64,000 nt of DNA from Adineta ricciae (Eukaryota > Rotifera > Eurotatoria > Adinetida > Adinetidae). This document shows positions 1 to 15,588 of this stretch, one piece after another. The stretch is taken from the NCBI GenBank assembly GCA_905250025.1, contig CAJNOJ010000179.1:88334-152333 (forward strand), given 5' to 3'. Made by a program: the position numbers and the translations under genes. Within the stretch, counting starts at the first letter, position 1. Each line of letters opens with the position of its first letter. The notes under the pieces are model-generated. The model was not told the DNA's origin and did not search any database. It worked only from the letters and a program-made list of their open reading frames with translations.

Positions 1-1035
1 CAGTGTTCAATAAACGTAGTAAATGTGGAACAAAGCCAATGTTTAATGCTTTCAATTGAACTTTGGGATTTCTAGAAAATCTTCTATGAACATTTCCATT
101 GTATAAGACAAATCTCGCTCACCCTTGGAAAGCGGCACCTAGTGTCAAACAAGTTAAATGACGTACATCATTATTGACATTCGTTGAATTTAATAATTGA
201 AGCAATAATTCCAGTCCGTGCATATCGGAAAATAAAATGGCGTTATCATACTAAACGAAACGATATCATTCCGAACATTCTCGATTGAATAGAATCACGT
301 CGACATACTTGATGAAGATAAAATTCTAAATCAGTTAAAATTGTTTTCCGGTTTTCGTTATTATCCGTTGCGTTCAATTGTTTTAGAAGATCAGTGAGAA
401 GTTCGTGATCAGTTTGAACTTTCATATTCATTTGTTCGAAATCTTTTTTTAGTTCATCATATGGACGATATTTTGTTTTGACTTCTTCTTCATGTTTCTA
501 AACAAAACAAACATATGAAGATGATTATAATAAATCATGATTAACATACTTCATCAGTGGTCACATCGTCTTTGCTTAAATCAAGATTAGCAAATGCTCG
601 TTCGAGATTTTCTCTACTAATACGTTCTTGCTGTTGAGTGTCATCATTCGACACAGGTACGAGATCGTTTGTAGATTCTTTTTGCTTTTCGTCCTTGTCG
701 AGTAGTTTCGCTTCTCGAAGGCCTGTTTGTAAATTTAACCGAACATGCAGACCGGATGGAATTGCTTGACCTAAAAAACAGAGATGAATCTATGGATTTA
801 TTGAGCGTATGATTAAAATACCTTCTTTCACGATTTGCCATTCGTTCGTAGGAATAAATTCGTCTTGATTTTGAACGAAGTTCTCTATAAAAATGATCTT
901 TCTTTCAAAGAAAAGTCTGGATATCACCTTACCGTTGGACTGTTCTGTTCGTATTGGAACAGATGAGAGTGATCCACATGTTAATGAAAGAATAACAATG
1001 AATATATACGTAGTAGGAAATGAATGAACCAACAT
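1..1035 (-). CDS. SIL1: SIL1-like nucleotide exchange factor for ER Hsp70 (partial, runs off left edge)
   Basis: Likely SIL1, the ER-lumen nucleotide exchange factor for BiP. Exons on the minus strand: 822-1035, 550-770, 309-497, 123-250 and 1-71 (incomplete), all with GT/AG borders and matching phases, giving about 274 visible residues. The start at 1035 opens with a hydrophobic signal peptide (residues about 5-25). Next comes EFIPTNEWQIVKEG followed by PSGLHVRLNLQTG, the characteristic SIL1 N-terminal block, then a charged helical stretch and an armadillo-like region with DNAILFSDMHGLE and NPKVQLKALN. The C-terminal half lies beyond base 1. The introns are short (about 50-60 bp). The family call rests on remembered motifs; the match over several separate exons makes it strong. 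Confidence 0.88.
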
Positions 1036-3296
1036 ATTTGTTTTACGCAGTAAATTTAACTTTGTGAATAAGTAAGAGTGAACAAATTCGAATTCTCTTT
1101 CTATTTTATATGTACCAATTGAATGACAATGTTGAAACGACAGCAAATCCACAGATATATGAAGAAATCAGACGTGGCAAACGAACTGTTGGCTTCATTC
1201 ATTCACATACGGACTTTTCATGACTCATAAATGCTGTGACGCGTACCAATCGATATTCATTTGCATTGACGATAGAGTGCGTTAGAGATCAACACTGAAA
1301 AATAAGTTATGAGCAGAACGTGGATGTCTCATCTTGAGAATATACACAGATAATAGAATCGTCTGATTGTGATATTTTACGCTTGTCTTTGAAGATTAAG
1401 TTCTAAACAAGCACTAAATATAAATGTACCTAACGCCCATTGTTCAATTATGATGTGAACTGACTCATTATCTCATACAAAAGTAACCGTGCATATTGAT
1501 AGGAGGAGAACAAAACATTTTCCTACATCACATATGAGTACTTTGTCAAAATGACGAAGTCTGAAGTTCTTTCTTAATAGAGTACTAGTAAAATTGATCT
1601 TTTGCAAAAGAACAAGGAATACCAGACTAGAACCATAGAAGTCTTTTCCTCTTTGTTAAGGCATACATTTCCCATTCCTTATGATATTCTTTGATTTGAA
1701 AGTTAATAATAAACTCCCTCCCAGAATAGTAGGCCCTCCTGGAATAAAACGGACTCCCTATATAGTATGCCCCTCAAAGACGAAAATTTAGGGAAAAACC
1801 CTATAGGAAGGGATAGAGGGATTTTTGCACAAAAAATATGCGATATGCGCGACCATATTCGACGGTGCTGAGCCTTTTATTGCGGAGGATTAATCAATGC
1901 TAGATGAATTTTGTGCGAGATACGTCGATACACAATCTTCATATCAGAAACCATGAAAACTACAATGATATTGTTCGGAAAAGGCAACGCTTTTCTGGCA
2001 ATAATAATGTTTGTTTATCTTGTAGTTCATGGGTGGGTTTTAATGAAAGTTGATTAAATGTGAGAATTAATATTAAATATAGTCTCCTGCGGGAAAAATC
2101 ACGCTAATAATTATCAAAGGTTCCTACAAATACTTGAGGCATACCAAAAGTAGCGACAATAGCACTTTTTATTCCATATTAGTCTTCTAGATATTGCTTT
2201 TTTTATACAGTCGGATAGAGAAAAAAACTCTCTTTCTAGGCTATTTGATTGTACTTCAACGAATATCATGATATTAAATTATCTATAGAACTTATTTTGA
2301 TATTCTTTGCTTTTTTCTTTTTTTTATGAAAAGAACTGTTTTTTTCAGCAGCAAGAAAATTGGATAAAAACCTGTAAGAAGTCACATTGAAGAAACTCAT
2401 AATATACGATTCCATGCATCTTCATATGCTCCTTTCAACAGTGAAAACTGCAGCTCTCTATGGCCTTCCGATAAAAAAATACTTATCAATATTCATACAG
2501 TCAGCACATAAGCAACCGAAATGAGTTTCATAGGTAATTCAATATCATGATATTAGTTGAAGTACGATCAAATAGCATGGAAAGATAGTGTTTTTTTTCT
2601 CTGTCTGACTGTATAAAAAGCTATCTTTAGAAGACTACTATGGAATAAAGAAGTACCACTACCACTATTTTTGGTATGCTCTAAGTATTTCAAATTTCCA
2701 TGGTGTAACCACGAACCGCCTGAAAATATTGGCTCATTAGGTAGAAGTCATCCATACATATGATTCCTGTTATGTTATTCAATATTAAATGAAAATTGCC
2801 TAGTGCTAGCGGTTCTTCGCAAAATTTTAAGGCTAAAAGTCAAATAAACGTTTTTATATTATTTAAATATTTATTCAAGGCTTTTGAATTAAAACTTCAT
2901 AGTAAAATGCACATTATATGAATAAGTATTTATTTCCAGGTCATCTTGTATGTCTATTTAATTGAAAATATAAAAAGAAGAAGACACGACAATACAGAAG
3001 AGAGAAAAAAAACGATCAATATAATACAATCCATAAACGTTCACAAAAAAAAACCGATGACCAAATTCCATAAATGACCAATCATTTCATCCTGCAAGAG
3101 AAAAACGTAACGTATAGAAAAGAATGTGATTGTTTTTCTGCATAATACATATCACCAAATGATCAACACCTTTCCGATCAAAACAAATCTCTCATGAGTT
3201 GAATAACAACATCACATATTTTCAAACTAGCGTCTCATTTCAACAAGCAACTTTGTCCCTCGGGAGAGATGTTCAAACATATCCTACCTTTCTTCT
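1036..3296. other. Intergenic between SIL1 and Pax6
   Basis: No convincing coding exon. It holds the long inverted repeat at 2128-2690. A GC-richer patch with short C/G runs lies at about 1710-1820. The rest is AT-rich sequence without a recognisable feature. Confidence 0.6.
2128..2690. repeat. Diverged long inverted repeat, probable foldback or MITE remnant
   Basis: Arm 1 (2128-2275) and arm 2 (2541-2690) are reverse complements at roughly 75-80 percent by eye, separated by about 265 bp. Shared landmarks in order are ATACTT(G/A)AG, GCATACCAAAA, TTATTCCATA, TAGTCTTCTA, TATACAGTC, GCTATTTGAT and GTACTTCAAC. At the inner edge of each arm is the perfect 14-bp palindrome AATATCATGATATT. No coding capacity and no clear target-site duplication were found, so the outer ends are uncertain. 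It could be an old non-autonomous DNA transposon. Confidence 0.7.
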
Positions 3297-5793
3297 TTAT
3301 GGTAAAATTGGGGAATACCATATATGTGGCGCTCCACCATACGGTGACATTGATTGCATGTTTTTCATATGATCGAGATCTAAATGAAAAGGTTATCGTT
3401 GATTAGCTGGGGCATGATTATGAATGTGTGTTTATACCTGATGAGAGATTAGATGGGATACCTGTTGAGTAATTTGGACAAGAACGATTATAAGGTGTGC
3501 TAAATGGACTTAGTCCGTCATAACCACGTGTTGAATCTATTAGAAAAGACGAAGAGGAAAAAAATTGAGTTATGTGTCAATTATTTTCTGTATAACGCGA
3601 AAAGATTTCTTCGGGGTATAGACATTTCTATTAGAATACAATTGAATTAGCTTGATGAGATAACTTACTGGGAAAAAATGTTGGATATCCTGATGAACTG
3701 CATGCAACGGCTGCTGCCATTTGTCCAGTAAAACCTGAACTAAATGCTCCATATTGATGATGATGGTGGTGGTGAAGATGTTGATCATTGTTGGTTGGAA
3801 GTACGGGAGGATAGAGTGAAACGGATGAGGATGATGGTTGCGTTTGTTGAGAAGATGGAAGAGGCGGTGTCGAACCTGATGGACGTAGGTTTTCTCCCAT
3901 CTCATTCATCAATTGTTGATGTTGACGTCGACCTTTGACTTTATCTTCTCGACGATATTTAGCGCGCCGATTAGAGAACCAGACCTAATTTCATTTCATT
4001 AAAATTTCTTTCGATATTCATGCACTTGCTTACTTGAATTCTCGCTTCAGGTAAATTGATCTTTTGTGCAAGTTTTTCACGCGCATAAACATCCGGATAA
4101 TGTGTCCCATTAAAAGCTAAAAATGACATCTTTGTATAGAAAAAAGAAAAACTCCATTCGAACAATACCTTGCTCTAAAGCATCGATTTGTTCTTGAGTA
4201 AATGATGTTCGATTCCGTTGCAGCTTGCGTTTTAATTTCAATCGTTCTTGAGCATCCGCATCGTTCTCAGTTAGACTATCTCGTATTGCTGATTTGCTAT
4301 CGTTACTTGCATCAGATAAATCTAAAGACAAAGAAACAAATCTTTTTCTTTTCTTCTTGTCATTTACATTTCAATGGAGAAAAACAATGTTAATCAACGA
4401 TGTGGAAAAATACGGATTAGAAAAGATTGAACATCTGTAAAATAGTGACAAGTTTTTTTCCTTTACATTTTCTACCAATCAGATGCATGGAATAATTTGC
4501 TCGACTCGATAAGAGGAAAATCACTTGCTTGTTTTTTTTCTTAATGAAAAAAGCGACTCGATATCTTCAGGGCACGAACAGTTTATTTTAATCAACCGAT
4601 CATGATATCTACAGGTGGTCTATTTACTAAATATAGTCTTGCTTGAAATCAAACAATCGCCGAATCGACTTCAATTGAAGTTGATGCGGGAGAATTCGAA
4701 TGGAAATAAGTGTCCGAATGTTATGAAAGAGAAGAGAGCTTGACAAGAATTTTGATCATTTTACCTCCTAGATCTTGATGGTGACCATGATTGCCATCGC
4801 TTGCTTGATGCTTATACTCTGAATTCGAATCGCCACTTGTCGAATAGGTACCTGACGATGGTTGTGCGCCAGGATGATGAACATAAAACGACGACGATGA
4901 TGATGAAGGCCATGGTTGGCTATGTAAAGCACGTAGTTTACTATCCACAGAATAGTAGGTTTCATGATTAGTCATTGAATCTAAGGATTTCGAACCAAGA
5001 TTTCTCAGTACTCGATTGATGGATGAAACCTAGAATAGAGAAGCAACGTGAAAATCTTGATAGAAACACATCTGCGCGTCTTTTTTTTCTTCTTTTTGGT
5101 ACATACACTTGGAATATTTTCCGAATTGCAAACATTTTCAGCTAAGAGACGATCACGAATTTCCCAAGCAAATATCGATGGTGTTTCGCGTTTGTATTGT
5201 GCAATTTTTTGAACAACATCATTAGTTGCCACGCGAGGTTTCGAACCACCAATTGCACGTGGTTTAATTGAACCTGTTTCATAGTATCGCGCTAAGATCT
5301 TCGATACGCAACCATTGGACACTTGCAAACATCGACTAATATCACAAGGACGCATGCCATTGTGAGCTAGTTCAACTATACGTGATCGCGTACTATCCGG
5401 TAATGGTCGACCATTAACAAACAGACCTCCGAGTTGATTAACTCCTGAATGTCCTAGAAGAATATACACATAAATATACCGGATTCTCATTGCATATTCA
5501 TGATTAGTATTAATAAAAAAAGGAACAGTAAAAACACTTGAAATGTATTGTAGCGTATAAGATTGTGATCACCGGCGGTGATTGATCACATTCTAATTTC
5601 TTATCAAAACAACAACAACAACAACATGTTTCTTCTGACGAGTTCTCCATCGAAATAAATGAAAACTGTTATATATACAAACAATTTCCTCACGGGCATG
5701 TTTTTTCATATTTCAATCCGCATGTTTGATCTTCTACTCGAGTAAGGATAACTTACCTTTATGAGACATTGATAGATCATTGTGAATATCCAT
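3297..5793 (-). CDS. PAX6: Pax6 paired-box and homeobox transcription factor
   Basis: Nuclear DNA-binding regulator of eye and brain development in other animals. Eight coding exons: 5757-5793, 5107-5453, 4765-5029, 4169-4321, 4034-4116, 3669-3984, 3438-3536, 3297-3379. They sum to 1,383 nt in frame (460 aa), close to the usual 420-450. A complete paired domain (PAI plus RED) starts at [19 protein letters not shown], about residues 13-140. RED includes [18 protein letters not shown]. The homeodomain is at about 250-309 ([18 protein letters not shown]) with the Pax-type serine 50 in [14 protein letters not shown]. The C-terminus is rich in P, S and T with a His run, typical of the transactivation tail. 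Introns interrupt RED after NIPS and the homeodomain twice. An acceptor-like AG lies 15 nt before the ATG. Confidence 0.97.
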
Positions 5794-8700
5794 TGTATCG
5801 GTGAACTAGAATGAAGAAGAAAGAAAAACGGATAAAGTAAGAACGAAACGATCACTTTCGAACAAATTTTATTTACCCCGACATGTTTTTAAACTAATCT
5901 TATCTGAATGTCTGCTTTGGTCTGTAGTTTTTTTCTTCTCCTTCTCTAATTCTATTTCTCTAATTGTGATTTATTCAACTATATATTTAATGTTCATTGA
6001 ATCATATATTTATTGATCATCAACAGTCATTCATTGGGGCGTATGTTTTCTTTTCAATATAACAATCCGAAAAAAAAGGAGGAAGAAATCTTGGAATACA
6101 ATCGAATATCTTGATTATCTTTGAAAAATACATTTTCCGTTTCTTTTCTCTTTTTCTCCTCTCGATTTTCCTTTTTTTTTATATTGAGAATATTAGTAAC
6201 AACTTACAGTTCAGTGGGTTGGAACTTGTTTCGGATCACACACGGGCGGGCGGGCGGACAACGCTCGCACGGATTCGGTTAGTTAGCCTCGTGTGAACGC
6301 TCGATTTGTGCGCTTACAACTGAAAGCATCGAGACAAAACACATATACAAGAGAAAAATCGGGCAAGCGTATAACGACAAGAAAAAGAGAAATAGATCGC
6401 GAAAGGATAAGACAGAGATTGAGAGAAGGAGAAGGAGAGGGAGAGCGATGAAAAAAAAAAAATGCCAAAAGAAACTCTACCGACAGCAAATCCGATTGTT
6501 TGTCGGTCTTTTTCTCTTCTTTTTTCTCATAATTTTTTCTGCTCGAATTAACTTATTCGTCTTCCTCTCTTCTGACTGGCTACCTTTTTTTTTCTCTTTA
6601 TTTCTGTCAGTCATATATCGACAACGACGTCGTCTAAGCACTTCATGGTAATCAAGTAGGCGAAGAAAAGAAGAGAACAAATTAATCATTGGTTGGCTGA
6701 TTTCTTTTTCCTCTCGGGTCGTTTGCTGATTGGTCGGATATTTTTAGTCTGCCATTCTTTTCCTCGTCTTCCATCGCCATCATCATCATCTACCTGATTC
6801 TGCGAACGTTCCCTTTTATTCGACTCCTTCCGTCTTCTATTCATTGAGACTTANNNNNNNNNNNNNNNNNNNNNNNNNNNNNNNNNNNNNNNNNNNNNNN
6901 NNNNNNNNNNNNNNNNNNNNNNNNNNNNNNNNNNNNNNNNNNNNNNNNNNNNNGTCTGCCCTATGCCTATCAATAATAGGAAAGAAGAAAGGAGATAGTG
7001 TGTGTATGTATGTACGTAGCTAATTACAAAGAACTTATCATTATTGAGAGCGACGACAAAAAAAATGTACGCGCGCACTTTTTAATAGGACAAAGAGAGA
7101 AAGATCGCAATCAGTGTTGAACATTAATGATGAAATAAGGACCGACAAGATGAACGCTTACCATACACACATCACACATCTTCAATCAAAGATCTGATTG
7201 ATTTACTTTGATAAAAACATGCATTGACATCCAATAAACTTTCTCGCGCTCTCATTTGTCGAAATTAACGTTGTAGAAGTATCTTTACAGAAGACTTTTG
7301 AATATTAATAGAGAGACAAATATAGAATCGAATCAGAATTCAAATGTCATTCATTTTCTCGTTAGAGTGTGTTCATTGAATCGAACATGATCTGATCCGA
7401 TTGATGACAATACAATTGGTCGCACAATCAGAAAGGCAATGGGAACGAAATAGATGTGGATTTATGAAAAGGAAAATGAATCGACAATTGCCTGGCATAG
7501 AAGTAATAGAAAACTAAACAAAATGAGCGGAAGACGACAATCATCTACATCTTCATAGTTTCAAAGATACCCTTCGGGCTATGCGCATTGACTTACCTAG
7601 ATTGTCGATAGTTTAATCAAGATAAAACTGGATACAATAGTAGTCAAATGATAACTGTTAGAGTAACGAAAAAAGAAGAATGTTTTAATAAAGTAAAACT
7701 ATCTCCATTTCCATCCATTAGTCTTTCCGGCATTTTTCTTTTCTTATCTAACTTTAACATAATAAAAAGGAGCTTTGTTTTCGCATGATCGATATTATTT
7801 AAAGACATTTAAGAAGGAAATTGATATACATTATCCATTTAGATTGTGTATATCTCGAGCATACATAATCATTGAACGACAAAACGATTCAACCGTTGAA
7901 CTGTATCGCAAAAGAAGAACTTTCGCAAAAGTTATCATCGTTCACCTCAAATTCGAACTTCATTTACTTACCGTAACTAGCACGTTGCTATACAGAAATT
8001 TAATGAGAAAAGAAGTAAGTTTTTCTTATCTTCATTTCATTAACAAAAAAAAATTGTAATTATAATGTATGTATATATTTGAAATACTATAAACTATTTC
8101 CATGGATACGAGTTAAAATGACTTTTTAAAGTGCGTACAAGTATTGTTTTTAGAGAATTTTCATTTTCAATGGAAACAAAACATCCCGAACAGTCATGTT
8201 CGATGAAGAAAACTATTGGTAGGCGAATTGAAATATAATCTTATTTCTATATCGCTTAGACGACAAATTCTTATAAGTACATTTATACTATCACATGAAA
8301 ATCATAGTTTAGTTCTTTAAAATCTATTATTCTACTCGAATGATTTGATTTCTGGTCAATTTCCATTTCCAGAAATGTGAGAGACTGAAAATAGATTATG
8401 GTTAATGTGCTGTTGAAAGCACATGCTTTTGTTCCTGTATCACGAATAGAAAACAGAGATCCGTTAAATTGAACTGCTTCTTTTAGAACACACATTACTT
8501 GTTCCCACGGCCTAGAAAAGACTTTATTTGACATGACTTACTCTACATTAAAACAAACTACACATCGAAATTTTCACTATACACACGAGAATTTTGTCTA
8601 TGTTTACATTGTATCACAAATTATTGTTTATCATTTCGAAATTTCGAAGTAGAAAAAGAAATATTAGATATCCATTGAAATGCTTAATTCATCTTCATAA

Positions 8701-9204
8701 ATTGTCGTTTTCTATAAAAATAGCGTGTTGATTTCAGAACTTTCAGATGTTACTTGACTACGATCCAGTTTCGAACAAACTTTGATTTCCATTAAATATT
8801 TATATCTGTGATCAAGAACGGTTTGCTACTAAGGTTTTGTAATAATTGATAACTTCAAGTTGAGTGTCTAGCATCATATTACTCGAAGAAGACCTATTTA
8901 TAAAAACTCATCAACTGTAAATCATAGTTTCATCGGTAAATGCACTTTTTTGACATTTTAGTATATCACGGAATGTTTCTATCTCATCATGGAACACGAG
9001 ATATGATAGGTAAGTTCATTATCTTCCTTTATTTTTTGTACGAAGAAAAAAGCCAAGAAACAAACAAACAAAACATTCGATAGACCTATTGAAACGTTTA
9101 CATCACAAAAATTCTCCGTAGATAGAGTTCATATTTCATGTTTTCGATTGAATCTGATCGTTATCCACGGTCGTATTTACAAAGAAAAATAAATCTTTAA
9201 TAAA
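5794..9204. other. Long non-coding interval upstream of Pax6, with assembly gap
   Basis: About 3.4 kb between the Pax6 start and the 3' end of the next Pax-derived gene. It contains polypyrimidine tracts, a (CGGG)n run at 6243-6257, a 100-N gap and no supported exon. It is the natural place for a Pax6 5' UTR exon and regulatory sequence, but no specific site could be assigned. Confidence 0.6.
6854..6953. other. Assembly gap (100 N)
   Basis: Exactly 100 undefined bases, the usual scaffold placeholder. True distance and content are unknown. Reading frames that touch it are not reliable. Confidence 0.99.
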
Positions 9205-10957
9205 TCAAATAAGTAAAGTAACAAATTGGGGTTGGTTATGAATATCCTTTCGACACATTGGACACGAACGATTCTTGATCATCCATTCTTGGATACATGA
9301 CGAATGATACTCATGCGAACACGATAGGATGCTAACTTCTTGTCCACTACGGTAGGTATCGAGACAAATCGAACATTCCGATGTCGATTCTGTATCGGAC
9401 GGCGACGAAGATAGACATATTGTTACTGACGATGAAGCTTCCGCTTTAGGAAGATTATCTAGTGTTGTGGAGAATGGTAAAATCGATGGAGATTCATATG
9501 CATCTTTGATGGAAGTACTAGATGTTGGAGATTCATTAAGGATACGTTGGATAGCTGCTGCCTAATGAAAGAAAAATATTGATTTGATAGGGAAAAGGGA
9601 GAAAAAGATGAAAATTTACATTTGGTAATGTTTGACTGGTGCAAACACCATTCTGTACTAGTGCTTGTTGAATTTCCCAAACGAACATGGTCGGATTATT
9701 AGTTTTTAATTTGAGAATTTCAAAGCGAAGCTGTGGAGTTATGCGAGGACGTCGTTTGATAGTTGGAATGGAACGTTTAGATTTTGAAGGAGCAGTCGTA
9801 GGTGGTAATGAAGGCAATGGAAAATGTGACGATGGAATCCCATTTGAAAATAGAGAATAATCATAATTGAACAGTGCATTGATCGGCCGTATGGATGGTT
9901 GACGTTCAGTCGATTTGGTAGTTGTTGTCGATTGTGAAATTGAAGAACCGGATAAATTGTAAGGGGGGAAGAGAGCTAGAATAGAAATGTATTCATCGTA
10001 GAGAGCAGATTTACCAATTCACGAGAAATATTCGGATTTCGTTAATGAAGAGATTAGACGATGAGAAAACTCATCCTTTTTTTTTCTCTCAAGCCTTAGA
10101 TTATTTGCTCATTCGAACGAAATGAGAGTTTCAACTAGCAATCATCTTTTTAACCTCTCATCAGCTTAGATTCCTAAGGGATCAGTCAACAGAAGTTGTA
10201 ATGTAGAATCTATATTCATCGAAGCGAAACCATATACGAACACTCTTATCGACAGCGGGAATCATCATGTACAATATTTTATTTAAGCAAATAATAGTTA
10301 CTCTAAATCATCGCATATATGCTAGTAAATGAATACTCTCAGAGCAAATAAACTAATTTTCCTATCTGCGAACCAATTTCAATAGATATTTACTTGGTTG
10401 TGGATAATCTCGAAATGAAGCACTTTGTGTACGCATTAGCGATGGACCATTATTCCATCCAAGAAAAAGTCCAGGCGAATGATAATTTGCCGGTGTGTGT
10501 GAGTAATGAAATGGATTCGACAGCAAATGATTCATTGTGGACGTAGCATAAATTGAGGTCGATGTTGGCAAGGCTGATTCAGCTGAAAGAAACACATTGT
10601 TAAACTACCGTATTACACGAAACTAATTCTTGACATACTATGGCGTCGATAGAGGCTCGAAGTTGTCTGATTAAGATTCGATGATGAATATGAATCACTA
10701 GATTTATTTATTGGATCACCGGTTGAAGATAATGTTCCTATTGTGAACGGTGTGGGTTGATAGGCAAACGTTGCATACGTCGGCTTTTCCCAAGGATTAT
10801 GACGATGATGATAATCATGAGTAAATGTTGAATAGGTGTTGTAATCTAGACAATAATTATTCGATGTTTGTCGCACTAAAAATAAAGATTCTTTTGACTT
10901 ACTCAACGATTGAGAGAGAGGATTATTGACAGTATTATCTTTTCGTGTCATCATCAT
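9205..10957 (-). CDS. Paired-box RED subdomain joined to a C-terminal RING-H2 finger
   Basis: Four exons, 10639-10957, 10394-10582, 9620-9975 and 9205-9561, sum to 1,221 nt in frame (406 aa). Residues 1-240 are low-complexity, rich in S, T, Y and P. Basic KSKRSIPTIKRRPR leads into a RED-type helix-turn-helix at about 245-300, with PTMFVWEIQQALVQNGVC and then AIQRILN. Compare Pax6 [18 protein letters not shown] and SINRVLRN. The intron after LPN is phase 0, at the same place as the Pax6 intron after IPS. Exon 4 continues without interruption into a RING-H2 finger with ligands C351, C354, C369, H371, H374, C377, C388 and C391. No PAI subdomain or homeodomain was found. RED should bind DNA and RING-H2 should recruit an E2, so a DNA-targeted ubiquitin ligase is the inference. 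An acceptor TCTAG directly precedes the ATG. Confidence 0.85.
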
Positions 10958-12471
10958 CTAGAAAAAGGCATAGATTGAATCTGTGTATGTGTTCGTTCAT
11001 TGTAAATAAACAAAAATAAGCAGAGCAACTTCATCACGGCAACTGTACGTAGAATGTATGCTTTCTTTAAATATAAAGAATAGACATTTGTTCGTTCTGA
11101 ACAAGTCATTGCGAGAGAAAAATTTTTTGCAGAGAACACGAGAGAGAGAAATAGGGAATATGGACGAGAATGATGCTCGACGTGTCTTTTTTCTCTCTTA
11201 ATTATACAGTTGATTCTTTTTCGTTCTGTCATTACTTTTTTTCCTTTTCTTTTGCATGAAATGGAAATGGACCTAGGCTATCTTTTTTTTCGCCGATAGA
11301 TTCTCTTCTTATACTTGAACAGTCTAGTTTTTTCTTTCGTTCCTTCAGGTTAAAACCGTTGTAAAACAGCATGTACTAATGCTATTAATAAAAAAACTTT
11401 GAATATACAAGAAGAAACTTCATTTTTAAAAGTGACCTCAGAGAAACATGTTTAGTTGATGATTAATTTTTTTCTTAAGAAAGATACACTTACGTACAAA
11501 AAACAACATACACATCAAGTGAAAGGAAGAGAAAAAAAAACGTTAAGCAGAAACAAGGCAAACATTGAGAAATTTGTTTTTTCTTGTAAGTTGTTAATAT
11601 TCTAAGTAGAAAACCTAGTCAGCGAGAATGTCTGAAATGTGTTATTGCTGATTTACACATGAAAATGAGTATAACAAATGAATGGCAAGGTGGATTTAAG
11701 AACGAGGATGTGATAAAAACAAATGTTCTTCAAAATTGTATTTGTTTCATGATTTCGAAGAATTTTTGTGTAATGTGTTCATACAGAAGAAACATTGCAA
11801 GTGGCAAGTTAGATGGAACACATATGGTATATGATAGATATCAAGCTAATTGGTGATTCCGATGAAGCAGAAGTCATATTTTTGAATTTAGAGTTTAATT
11901 TGAAGATAAATCACGTGCTGTCTAGTTCAAATTCGAATACAAATGAATATTCAGGTGTTGGTTATATCTTCGAAAATAGATGAAGAAAATGAAAACTAAA
12001 GCTGTAATGTTTAGCAAGACTAGAGGTAGTTGTAATTTGATTCCTTTACAGCTCATCTATACCTTATCTCGTAAAAAAAGAAATGATAAGAATAGATTTA
12101 TTTCAGTGTTACCTCACTACAACTCACATAAACAGATAGATCTGTGTCTGAGTATGCACGATATGTATAAATAACTAAAACTATGCTTTATTTTTGAAGT
12201 TTTCATACATATATTCGAATTAGGCAGCTATTTATATTGATACATATTTTTTGATTGTAATGCCGGTTTTGTGCTTGATCGATCAAAATGACTCGACTAT
12301 TAATGTATTTGAAATAAATATTTAATAAATGAATTTCTCTCAAAACATCAAGAAAATACATCTGTACGCCTTTGTTGAATAAAATCTCATAAAATATCTT
12401 TACTGTTATATATAAATGAAAACGAAAAGCAAAAAAAATGTTCGATTAATGAATGATTCTGTTTGTACATA
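10958..12471. other. Intergenic between the Pax/RING gene and the RNF38/44-like gene
   Basis: About 1.5 kb, AT-rich, with polypyrimidine runs near 11220-11340. Several short frames are present but none has supported splice sites or recognisable residues. Confidence 0.55.
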
Positions 12472-13695
12472 TTAATGATTTGAGAGAAAGTTATCTCGTC
12501 GACATATGGGACATGAAGAATTCATTGTAAACCATTTTGCAATACATTTCGAGTGATATTCATGTTGACATGGGAGTATTCGAATACGTTGATTATCTTT
12601 AAAATGAGACATACATATGACACAAGCTGTTTGTTTTGAAGATAAAAGATCAGTTGTCCGGATGGATCGGTATCGATATGAAGCGAAGTGTTCAATATCA
12701 ACTGATTTGAAACGATTTGGATCGGACAACTTCTCGGCTAGATCTAGTAATTGTTCGTAATTTTCACGTTCGCGATACGAACGTGATGGTTGATAGTGAA
12801 ACGAGGGAAAATTCCATCGAAATTGCTGTTCATCCGACGAACATGTCGATGTCGATTCAGTTGAAGTGTCTGAATGAGCAGGTGAAATATTTCCTGTGCG
12901 CATGATTGTTGCACTCATTGTTTGCTGTTTGCTGTCAAGAACGAAGTTTGTCGTACGTAATGGACTAAACACATTTGATTGCGGTGAAAATAATCGCACA
13001 TTGTTGCTTGTAACCATAGTTTTAGTTGATTTCGGAATTGTGTCTAAAATTGAAAGTATAGTTTACTAATATACGTTAGTGGTACACGTACTTTTCGGAT
13101 CTGTAGTGAATGATGTTTCATTTTCAAACATGTGTAAATGTTGATTAGCCAGATATTCGTTATGTATACTCGAAGGAGTATATTGATTCGATAGACTTTG
13201 TTCATATTCATGCGGGGTTGATAATGATGGTAATAAAGGATTGTAGAAAGTAGGTCGTTCGTTTGTCATTTGTAAATGATTCCAATCTTGTCCTGCATGA
13301 TACAAAAGTACCGACCGACGTTTGATAGCTGTTGATGGAGGTTGATTTTCTAATTCAATGTGATGTTCGCATCGTGTTCGTTTGGCATGAAAATCAGGAG
13401 ACTGAATGTGAGAATCATCTTCTAGGAAACGTTTTCGACTTGCTGTCGACGTTGGTGTCGATGATGGGAGAAGATGATGATTGTATATTGAATGCGGATG
13501 ATCGATGAAGAAATCGATTTGCTCATTAGCAATGGGAGGACAACGTCGTGTACGTGTAGATTCTGTTGACGAAGGTAAATGATCGCTTGAGTTTGAATGA
13601 AGTCGACGACAATGTAAATCGAAATGTTGATTTAGTTCATCCATAGTCGGTGGTAACGATGAATGATTTGTTACTCGTTTCTGTTTTTCAGCCAT
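12472..13695 (-). CDS. RING-H2 E3 ubiquitin ligase, RNF38/RNF44 type
   Basis: Two exons, 13092-13695 and 12472-13043, give 1,176 nt (391 aa). The N-terminal two thirds are disordered, with basic stretches (SRKRFLEDD, IKRRS). The C-terminus carries ENYEQLLDLAEKLSDPNRF, then DIEHFASYRYRS and a RING-H2 finger with ligands C342, C345, C360, H362, H365, C368, C379 and C382. The ENYE-LL-LAE-L block followed by a short linker and a C-terminal RING-H2 is the RNF38/RNF44 layout. The expected role is E2 recruitment and substrate ubiquitination. The zinc-ligand spacing (15 and 11) is identical to that of the neighbouring Pax/RING protein, which suggests the two RINGs are related. Confidence 0.8.
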
Positions 13696-14176
13696 CAGAT
13701 TTCACCCGACATTCATTCTACTAAGGACATGACATCATTCGGTCGTCGAATATGAACAATAATGAATGTAATTTACCTATACAATCATTAATTGAAACTC
13801 CAATTCAATCTAGAAGACAAATAAATAGTGATTATAATGCACAAGAAAAGAAATTTCCTAGAATTATACAACATTAATTAAATGTTACACACTAAAACAA
13901 ATGGCGAAATAATATTAGGATGAGATGAACAACAAAACCAACAACGAAAAAGAAAAGAAAACATATTTATGTGCACACACATACTCACAATATACATCTG
14001 ACATTGAAACGAAAAAGAAAAGTGAAAATGAGATTCCAATGGAATTCATGTCAGACATTGAGTATTTTCTTTCCGTGACAAAACATTACTACCAATTATG
14101 ATTATCTGTCAGATTTTCAGTTCTTTCTTCAGCACCAATCTTCGATTCGTGAAATAAGAAAGAGATTTCGTCGTAA
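13696..14176. other. Intergenic between RNF38/44-like and the first TADA3-like gene
   Basis: About 480 bp of AT-rich sequence, probably promoter of the gene at 12472-13695 and 3' UTR of the next. No distinct feature seen. Confidence 0.5.
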
Positions 14177-15588
14177 TTATACAAATGGATATGTATCTAT
14201 GAGATGTTTTTCTAATTCGATTCGTTCATCAACCAATCGTGCTAATTCATCGTAAACGCGAAGTGTTGACTGCCGACGACCTTTTCGCCATGCATCACTT
14301 TCACTATTTCCATTCGAATGCTGTTGTTGATTAGAATTGTTATCCAATGGACTTATTGGTTTACATAATGATATGGCATTTTCACTTGGACGTTTACGTT
14401 GACGAATAGAATTTGTGATTTCGAGAATTTTATCGTCAAGTATACTCAAATCCAGTCGGATCGTATCCATTTTGCATTGTTTTCGTGCACGATCAAGTGC
14501 TAAACGTTCGATGCTGAGACATTCAGCAAGACGATGTTGTAATTCTGCATATTTCGATGAAAAAACACTAAAATATGAACAGTTTGTTAAACTAGATTGT
14601 TTATGAATGGAAAATCTTACTGATTATCTCGTCGAAGCAAATCGAAAATTGATTGATCAATCTGCATTGAATTAGAACCATTTGACATGGTAGAGAATTT
14701 CCGTTTCATTCGATGATTGCTTGTTGTCGATCCATTTTTATATTGATTATTATTGGTCATATTCTCAACTAAACTGTACAAATGAGAATTTTGCTTAATT
14801 ACAACTGAGTATTCGGTTTCAGGATGAATATATTTGTCTTTGGATAAAAGATATTCAGTTGAACTCATAGTTTCTCTGTATTGATCGAAGTCTTTGTCAT
14901 AATCGAAATCGCTGAACAATGCTCGGTCCATGTTGAACACTTTGTCGATCTCATTACAATCATTTTCTTTGAGAAATTCATGTTGATTGTCGATAACTTT
15001 CCTCCAGAATTGATCAGGATTCGAAAGTGTATTTGGCTGTAATTTGCTTCCTGTGGAATTTTGTTGATGACCATTACGATAGTTAGTCTCGTAACAGTAT
15101 GGAAACGTGAAATTCATCGATCGATAAGATCTGATTGGTCGCGAAGAATTTCCATTACTATCTGATCGCATTTTTGCATAGGAAGAATCTTTTTTCGGCG
15201 AGAAAAATCCATTTGGCTTTCGTTCGCATTTAATAGTTTTCAGAAGATATTGAGCAGACGTCTTTTTCATTCGACGTTTGCGTTTCCCGTGTCCACTAAG
15301 CGCTTTACGTCGTCGTTCGCGTTCGGCTTTGAAATCTCGAGGACTTTTACCGTTTGCTAATCGTACCATAGATGAAGATGGCAGTTTTAACATATTTCCA
15401 TCTTGTTGTAGAAGTTCATTTTCACGTTGTAAAGCAGCAACAAGAGCCGATTCCAACTCTTGTTGAATAAATGTTAAATCGTAGATGAAAATTCCTTGTT
15501 GAAATGTAAGATCAATCGTACTGATGATTTGTTGACATCGTGGACATGCTGAACCGTACTCCGCATACCGAGAAGCAGCGGTTGACAT
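14177..15588 (-). CDS. TADA3/Ada3-like transcriptional adaptor, copy A
   Basis: Two exons, 14621-15588 and 14177-14567, give 1,359 nt (452 aa). An in-frame stop lies shortly before the ATG, which supports this start. N-terminal features are ACPRCQQII, then about 25 residues later IQQELESALVAALQREN, matching the Ada3 pattern of a CP motif followed by an L-Q-ELE helix. A central QFWRKVIDN fits the conserved FW element, and the C-terminus is helical, ending in DELARLVDERIELEKHL. Ada3 is a structural subunit of the SAGA and ATAC histone acetyltransferase complexes. Conserved positions are few, so the family call is moderate. The next gene upstream shares the same layout. Confidence 0.6.

Follow-up and report, generated by a model that had tools for sequence, protein, structure and literature searches.

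A five-exon gene encodes a Pax RED subdomain and a RING-H2 finger

The window, by which we mean the whole stretch of 64,000 bases analyzed from contig C179 of Adineta ricciae, carries on its minus strand a fusion gene that extends from position 10957 to position 9205 and comprises five coding exons specifying a protein of 387 amino acids. Coding exon 1 (10903 to 10957) starts with the ATG at 10957 and is followed by a GT-AG intron of 57 bases (10846 to 10902; GTAAGT...TAG), whose counterpart in the copies on contigs C66 and C74 is evident from deposited proteins. Coding exon 2 (10639 to 10845) was placed from the gene model and from the splicing of the C66 and C74 copies. Coding exon 3 (10394 to 10582) encodes a Ser/Thr/Tyr-rich N-terminal region in which the stretches RRHTES and SLMRT(H/Q)SAS are conserved. 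Coding exon 4 (9620 to 9975) terminates within the RED subdomain after the residues TLPN, in phase 0, and intron 4, which interrupts the RED (58 bases; 9562 to 9619), has the place and phase of the Pax6 intron between IPS and VSS. Coding exon 5 (9205 to 9561) consists of 118 codons that specify the end of the RED, a linker, the RING, a C-terminal tail, and the stop.

In exon 5 the frame stays open from AAAIQRILN, where the RED ends, through a C3H2C3 RING that is complete. The original prediction, made from the DNA letters, held that the fusion did not depend on a guessed exon join, and this was borne out, since exon 5 alone carries the RED end and the whole RING; reading frames and domain matches likewise located the RED and the RING at the positions claimed, in one open gene. 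The predicted four exons and 406 amino acids were not upheld, because the first exon of that model reads through the 57-base intron at 10902 to 10846, which is confirmed by the deposited proteins. The RING cysteines described as C351 to C391 are present, but they are numbered C332 to C372 in the protein of 387 residues.

Splicing of contigs C66 and C74, where the genes have four introns of phases 1, 1, 1, and 0, reproduces letter for letter two proteins deposited for A. ricciae, P0001 and P0008, and the rotifer source implied by the prediction is thereby borne out. The intron phases are identical in three copies, as read by exact splicing or by hand, and in the fourth as read by alignment. The C66 copy seemed at first to contain an in-frame stop, which was discounted because it falls inside intron 1. 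Immediately 5' of the ATG, positions 10958 to 10971 of the window form a pyrimidine-rich, acceptor-like site with TAG. Spliced leaders exist in bdelloids, and this site could be a trans-splicing acceptor or the 3' end of an unseen 5' intron.

Conserved features of the RED and the RING

Searched with the PF00292 and RING-H2 models, as had been proposed with the prediction, the 387-residue protein matched both above their Pfam cut-offs. The RED subdomain (residues 227 to 277; 9538 to 9748, minus strand) scored 38.9 bits with PAX PF00292 (cut-off, 22; E 1e-9) over profile positions 73 to 124 of 125, and the RING-H2, of the C3H2C3 type (residues 332 to 372; 9253 to 9375, minus strand), scored 51.4 bits with zf-RING_2 PF13639 (cut-off, 27.3; E 1.3e-13) and also matched a regular expression. 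Exon 4 alone gave 33.7 bits with PAX (profile positions 72 to 117), and joining exons 4 and 5 raised the score to 38.9 bits, which supports the splice join 9620/9561. No match to the first 72 positions of the PF00292 profile, corresponding to the PAI subdomain, was found in the fusion protein, and a six-frame PF00292 search of contig C179 returned only Pax6 and the fusion RED. The fusion protein also has no homeodomain, the only models matching it at E 0.01 being PAX and those of the RING type.

A search of PDB sequences with the RING gave 52 distinct sequences at E ≤0.001, and the solved RINGs closest by sequence were those of ZNRF3 (7.3e-14), Arkadia (2.1e-13), and RLIM (1.2e-12). The eight zinc ligands, in C3H2C3 order, are invariant across 19 relatives of the fusion protein, as are I334, W362, P370, and R373 of the RING, positions known to contact E2 or E2-ubiquitin. 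Because the zinc ligands and the E2-contact positions are all invariant, the protein is likely to be an active ubiquitin ligase. The RING is followed by a C-terminal tail of 15 residues (RKDIHNQPQFVTLLI; 9208 to 9252, minus strand) that is as constrained as the RING itself, with a mean majority of 0.97 among the 19 relatives. Tails C-terminal to the RING in MDM2, XIAP, and RNF4 aid RING pairing and activation.

The corresponding PDB search with the RED gave four distinct sequences at E ≤1, and the closest solved structures by sequence were the paired domains of prd, Pax8, Pax6, and Pax5 (E 5e-9 to 1.5e-8). The RED core motifs F-x-W-E-I and I-x-R-x-L are kept in the fusion family, and a basic KRPR stretch preceding the RED is retained in most alignment rows. 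The recognition helix of the fusion protein, AAAIQRILNE, differs from that of PAX6, and because of this difference the fusion RED may not read Pax6 sites. Residues I273, Q274, R275, and L277 of the helix are invariant across the 19 relatives. Since they are invariant in the family and yet the sequence is unlike that of PAX6, the helix appears to be constrained but altered, which would fit either recognition of a different DNA site or contact with a protein.

The linker between the RED and the RING (window positions 9375 to 9490 and the equivalent region of the relatives) contains a psi-K-x-E motif in 14 of the 19 proteins and a VTICL-like hydrophobic motif in 18, both patterns having been picked post hoc; the window copy is without the psi-K-x-E motif. 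Judged by their sequence, these linker motifs might be SUMO-related.

The fusion gene occurs in four copies and in other bdelloid species

A PF00292 search of the A. ricciae genome produced 43 exon matches, four of which belong to the fusion gene, in the window on C179 and on contigs C66, C74, and C56. The C179 and C66 copies are 92 to 97% identical in their last two exons, the C74 and C56 copies are paired in the same way, and divergence between the two pairs amounts to about a third to a half. The four copies are two old pairs.

The first protein database search (E ≤0.001) returned 28 proteins, comprising 21 family members and 7 proteins that share the RING alone. According to a precomputed domain list, 18 of the 21 members have both domains, and P0017, P0020, and P0021 have PAX alone; inspection by eye indicated that the reading of P0020 and P0021 continues into the intron at the RED splice site and that P0017 stops in the linker. 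A profile search returned 31 proteins, adding P0029, which has both domains, the fragments P0030 to P0036, which have one domain or none, and the unrelated RING proteins P0022 and P0037. Our alignment consists of the 19 proteins with both domains and leaves out P0017, P0020, P0021, and the fragments. PAX and RING were both matched at E 0.001 in 19 of 19 relatives, a set chosen for carrying both domains. Eleven of these have named sources, either Adineta (A. ricciae, A. vaga, and A. steineri) or Rotaria (R. sordida, R. socialis, Silwood1, and Silwood2), and eight come from environmental data. The search of other rotifers suggested with the prediction therefore found the same architecture in Adineta and Rotaria, in independent assemblies of other species. 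No Pax-RING protein from a named non-bdelloid was returned by searches that reach only relatives sharing exact words, and for this reason an independent fusion elsewhere is possible. Among the titles and abstracts of open-licence papers listed by literature searches, none described a Pax-RING protein; the author of the prediction likewise knew of none.

The length of one relative bears on splicing. P0014 has 329 amino acids, equivalent to 990 coding bases including the stop, and its longest contig has 1085 bases, leaving 95 over; the introns of the B-type genes of A. ricciae total 226 and 227 bases. Because this contig is too short to hold the introns, it is probably a transcript from which they have been removed and which encodes both domains.

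The fusion gene is under purifying selection

We calculated dN/dS ratios by the Nei-Gojobori method between the two copy pairs. The ratio was 0.25 to 0.26 for the whole gene, 0.33 to 0.38 for the N-terminal part, 0.157 to 0.211 for the RED, and 0.039 to 0.055 for the RING plus tail, at dS values of 0.86 to 1.37 outside the linker, which is near saturation, and with the linker saturated in two of the four comparisons. Within pairs, substitution counts were small. Across the 19 relatives, invariant columns numbered 19 of 56 in the RED, 27 of 42 in the RING, 9 of 15 in the tail, and 3 of 50 in the linker. The fusion gene is under purifying selection, and the E-values of the domain matches, the presence of both domains in all 19 chosen relatives, and dN/dS ratios well below 1 together indicate that the co-occurrence of the two domains goes far beyond chance.

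In the family tree, Adineta and Rotaria appear on both sides of the two-copy split, the second-copy branch having support of 86/76, below the starred level. Since both genera lie on both sides, the duplication into two copies probably predates the split between Adineta and Rotaria.

Neighboring genes suggest donors for both halves of the fusion

Directly upstream of the fusion gene, an open frame of 196 codons (12472 to 13062, minus strand) encodes a RING-H2 protein that scores 54.2 bits with PF13639. With the fusion RING as the query, 85 places in the genome were matched; the four self copies were followed in rank by the four RING-H2 genes that lie immediately upstream of them (54.5 to 52.8 bits), and the next match scored 46.6. 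With the neighbor RING as the query, 80 places were matched; below the four copies of the neighbor itself came the four fusion genes (57.5 to 54.5), and the next match scored 48.5. A RING-H2 gene thus lies upstream of the fusion gene at four of four loci, and the two are reciprocal nearest paralogues throughout. Proteins P0018 (fusion) and P0049 (neighboring RING-H2) each derive from a contig of 33751 bases, which suggests that the linkage also exists outside the A. ricciae genome.

At a distance of 3.4 kb downstream, and on the same strand as the fusion gene, is Pax6 (approximately 3418 to 5794; exons read and name assigned by eye), with a full paired domain (PF00292, 215.1 bits) and a homeodomain. 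Between the two genes, positions 6854 to 6953 of the window are a run of 100 N, representing an assembly gap or a masked stretch. The first 7000 bases of C66 are collinear with window positions 7299 to 14356 (92%), and the end of C116 is collinear with positions 384 to 5435; these two ends point toward each other with the gap between them, so that the second haplotype agrees with the window, although unjoined. Positions 2125 to 2297 and 2517 to 2690 show inverted matches to each other's C116 counterparts (78 to 84%) and resemble the arms of a small inverted-repeat element. Downstream of the C74 copy, a Pax6 homeodomain and 3' exons were found (C74:204142-204800), in pieces 64 to 90% identical. 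No paired box was found at this C74 Pax6, and a DEAD-box helicase-like gene (identified by eye) lies between, where the 5' part would be expected; the C74 gene may be a remnant or a Pax6 without a paired domain. At C56, where the contig ends after a further 4.1 kb, no part of Pax6 was found.

We surveyed the RED intron at 19 Pax loci, 13 of which were readable. The fusion gene, in which the intron follows TLPN in phase 0 at the Pax6 intron position, shares it with Pax6 on C179 and C116 and with the loci on C37, C11, and C814. The intron is absent from eight loci (C17, C243, two on C25, C60, C125, C174, and C75), and at C60, C125, C174, and C75 an intron is located a few codons later instead. 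For human PAX6, passages of PMC2530489 place intron 6 at c.357+1 and S121 in exon 7; c.357+1 lies after codon 119, a position equal to that of the fusion RED intron.

The RED tree placed the fusion REDs on a branch of their own, not joined to Pax6, and relations among the other Pax classes were without resolution. The fusion RED is 33% identical to the RED of the neighboring Pax6 and 40% identical to those of C37, C17, PAX8, and prd. Because the tree and identity do not favor Pax6, the indication of Pax6 as the source of the RED comes from the intron and the location only. The reciprocal paralogy of the RINGs, the shared RED intron, and the presence of Pax6 3.4 kb away suggest that the likely donors of the two halves are the flanking genes, the RING-H2 gene upstream and Pax6 downstream.

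An eyegone gene that had lost its homeodomain was also considered as the source. The tree is compatible with this origin, but a separate gene with a RED plus a homeodomain-like region exists on C814, and we rejected the eyegone origin as the explanation. In C814:12001-21697 (minus strand, approximately 6867 to 7700), that gene has, by eye, a Pax6-type RED intron, and no PAI was seen in it. It has an eyegone-like make-up and may be decaying.

Proposed function and alternative explanations

The locus holds one gene with two domains, present in four copies, conserved among relatives and under purifying selection. We lean, with modest confidence, toward the explanation that this bdelloid-lineage fusion gene encodes a nuclear RING-H2 ubiquitin ligase targeted by its Pax-derived RED. 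In the origin we propose, a duplicate of the RING gene would have acquired a Pax6-type RED exon and its intron, at a locus holding both a RING-H2 gene and Pax6. The basic stretch ahead of the RED (KRSIPTIKRRPR), a signal read by eye, would direct nuclear entry. The RED would dock on DNA, probably at a site altered from the Pax6 site, or on other Pax proteins, and the RING at the C-terminus, together with the conserved tail, would recruit a charged E2 and ubiquitinate an adjacent protein, for which Pax6 is the first candidate by analogy with TRIM11. The protein may also direct ubiquitination to Pax-bound chromatin, the function raised with the original prediction. PAI anchors most paired domains, and its absence counts against our explanation, as do the recognition helix unlike that of PAX6, the RED tree, and the identity values. 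We offer only tentatively, as somewhat doubtful, the fuller proposal that a Pax6-derived DNA reader became itself a ubiquitin ligase, built from two neighbors and fixed before Adineta and Rotaria split, with its duplicate kept and one of two Pax6 loci left without a paired box.

An alternative that we consider unlikely, though not negligibly so, is that the RED is a protein-interaction module only, through which the ligase would contact Pax6 or another paired-domain protein and set its level without binding DNA. Such a role would suit the recognition-helix residues unlike those of PAX6 and the loss of PAI, and there is a parallel in TRIM11, which passages of PMC10728303 describe as binding PAX6 and driving its degradation without a Pax-type DNA-binding domain. 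However, I273, Q274, R275, and L277 do not vary among the 19 relatives, and most alignment rows keep the basic KRPR stretch, both of which argue against a purely protein-binding RED.

Less probable still is a dominant-negative competitor, whose RED would sit on Pax6 sites while the RING mainly shortened the protein's own lifetime by self-ubiquitination. Pax6 is close at hand, 3.4 kb downstream, and passages of PMC3082225 report that the RED-only proteins eyegone and Pax6(5a) can bind DNA via the RED. Nevertheless, the recognition helix is changed, and the RING and tail are the most conserved parts of the protein, beyond the needs of a mere self-destruct signal.

Paired domains are related to Tc1-type transposases, and the Pfam HTH_32 profile gives 13.2 bits on the exon. 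This score is well below the HTH_32 cut-off of 33.7, while PAX exceeds its own cut-off and the RED intron has the Pax6 place and phase; we therefore rejected a transposase helix-turn-helix, not derived from Pax, as a highly improbable source of the RED-like part. Least probable of all is that two genes were read as one or that the assembly is at fault, for although P0017, P0020, and P0021 have PAX without a RING and some short fragments have a single domain, the last exon contains the RED end and the RING in four of four genomic copies, independent assemblies of other species concur, P0020 and P0021 enter the intron at the RED splice site in the manner of unspliced gene calls, and P0014 is compatible only with a spliced contig.

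Significance and comparison with known systems

The fusion is a new architecture built from known domains. Few developmental regulators are as well known as the Pax genes, whose domain make-up of PAI, RED, octapeptide, and homeodomain is regarded as established, and a ubiquitin ligase that derives from Pax and is conserved would put a Pax domain to a new use. If the fuller proposal is correct, ubiquitin would be deposited at selected sites or directly on Pax6, and the protein would represent a new class of regulator in bdelloids, a group with a history of old tetraploidy and asexuality. The way in which the genes fused can also be read unusually well at this locus, because the likely donors of both halves still flank the gene.

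The fusion protein resembles Pax6 and other paired-domain factors in its RED half, in the place and phase of an intron shared with rotifer Pax6 and human PAX6, and in its neighboring locus, whereas it differs from them in having neither PAI nor homeodomain, in its changed recognition helix, and in its C-terminal RING. A homeodomain is found in most, not all, Pax subfamilies. Judged by PAI and the homeodomain, which were tested for and are absent, the fusion protein does not qualify as a Pax transcription factor in the usual sense. Eyegone and twin of eyegone likewise have a paired domain reduced to the RED side, and passages of PMC3082225 describe Drosophila eyegone as having a truncated PAI and an intact RED. 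Eyegone has a homeodomain, in contrast to the fusion protein, which has a RING instead; it shows that a paired domain reduced to the RED side can be retained, though in company with a homeodomain.

On the ligase side, ZNRF3, Arkadia, RLIM, RNF38, and RNF4 share with the fusion protein a C3H2C3 RING with E2-contact residues, and none of them is known to carry a Pax RED. TRIM11 is, according to passages of PMC10728303, a RING E3 that controls the level of PAX6 and thereby provides the analogy for the proposed Pax6 target, although it has a TRIM architecture and no RED. MSL2 has another DNA-binding fold, has its RING in another position, and acts in the dosage compensation complex, yet it is the closest working parallel, being described in passages of PMC3447885 as a RING E3 whose own sequence includes a DNA-binding domain (CXC) and which acts on chromatin by modifying H2B K34.
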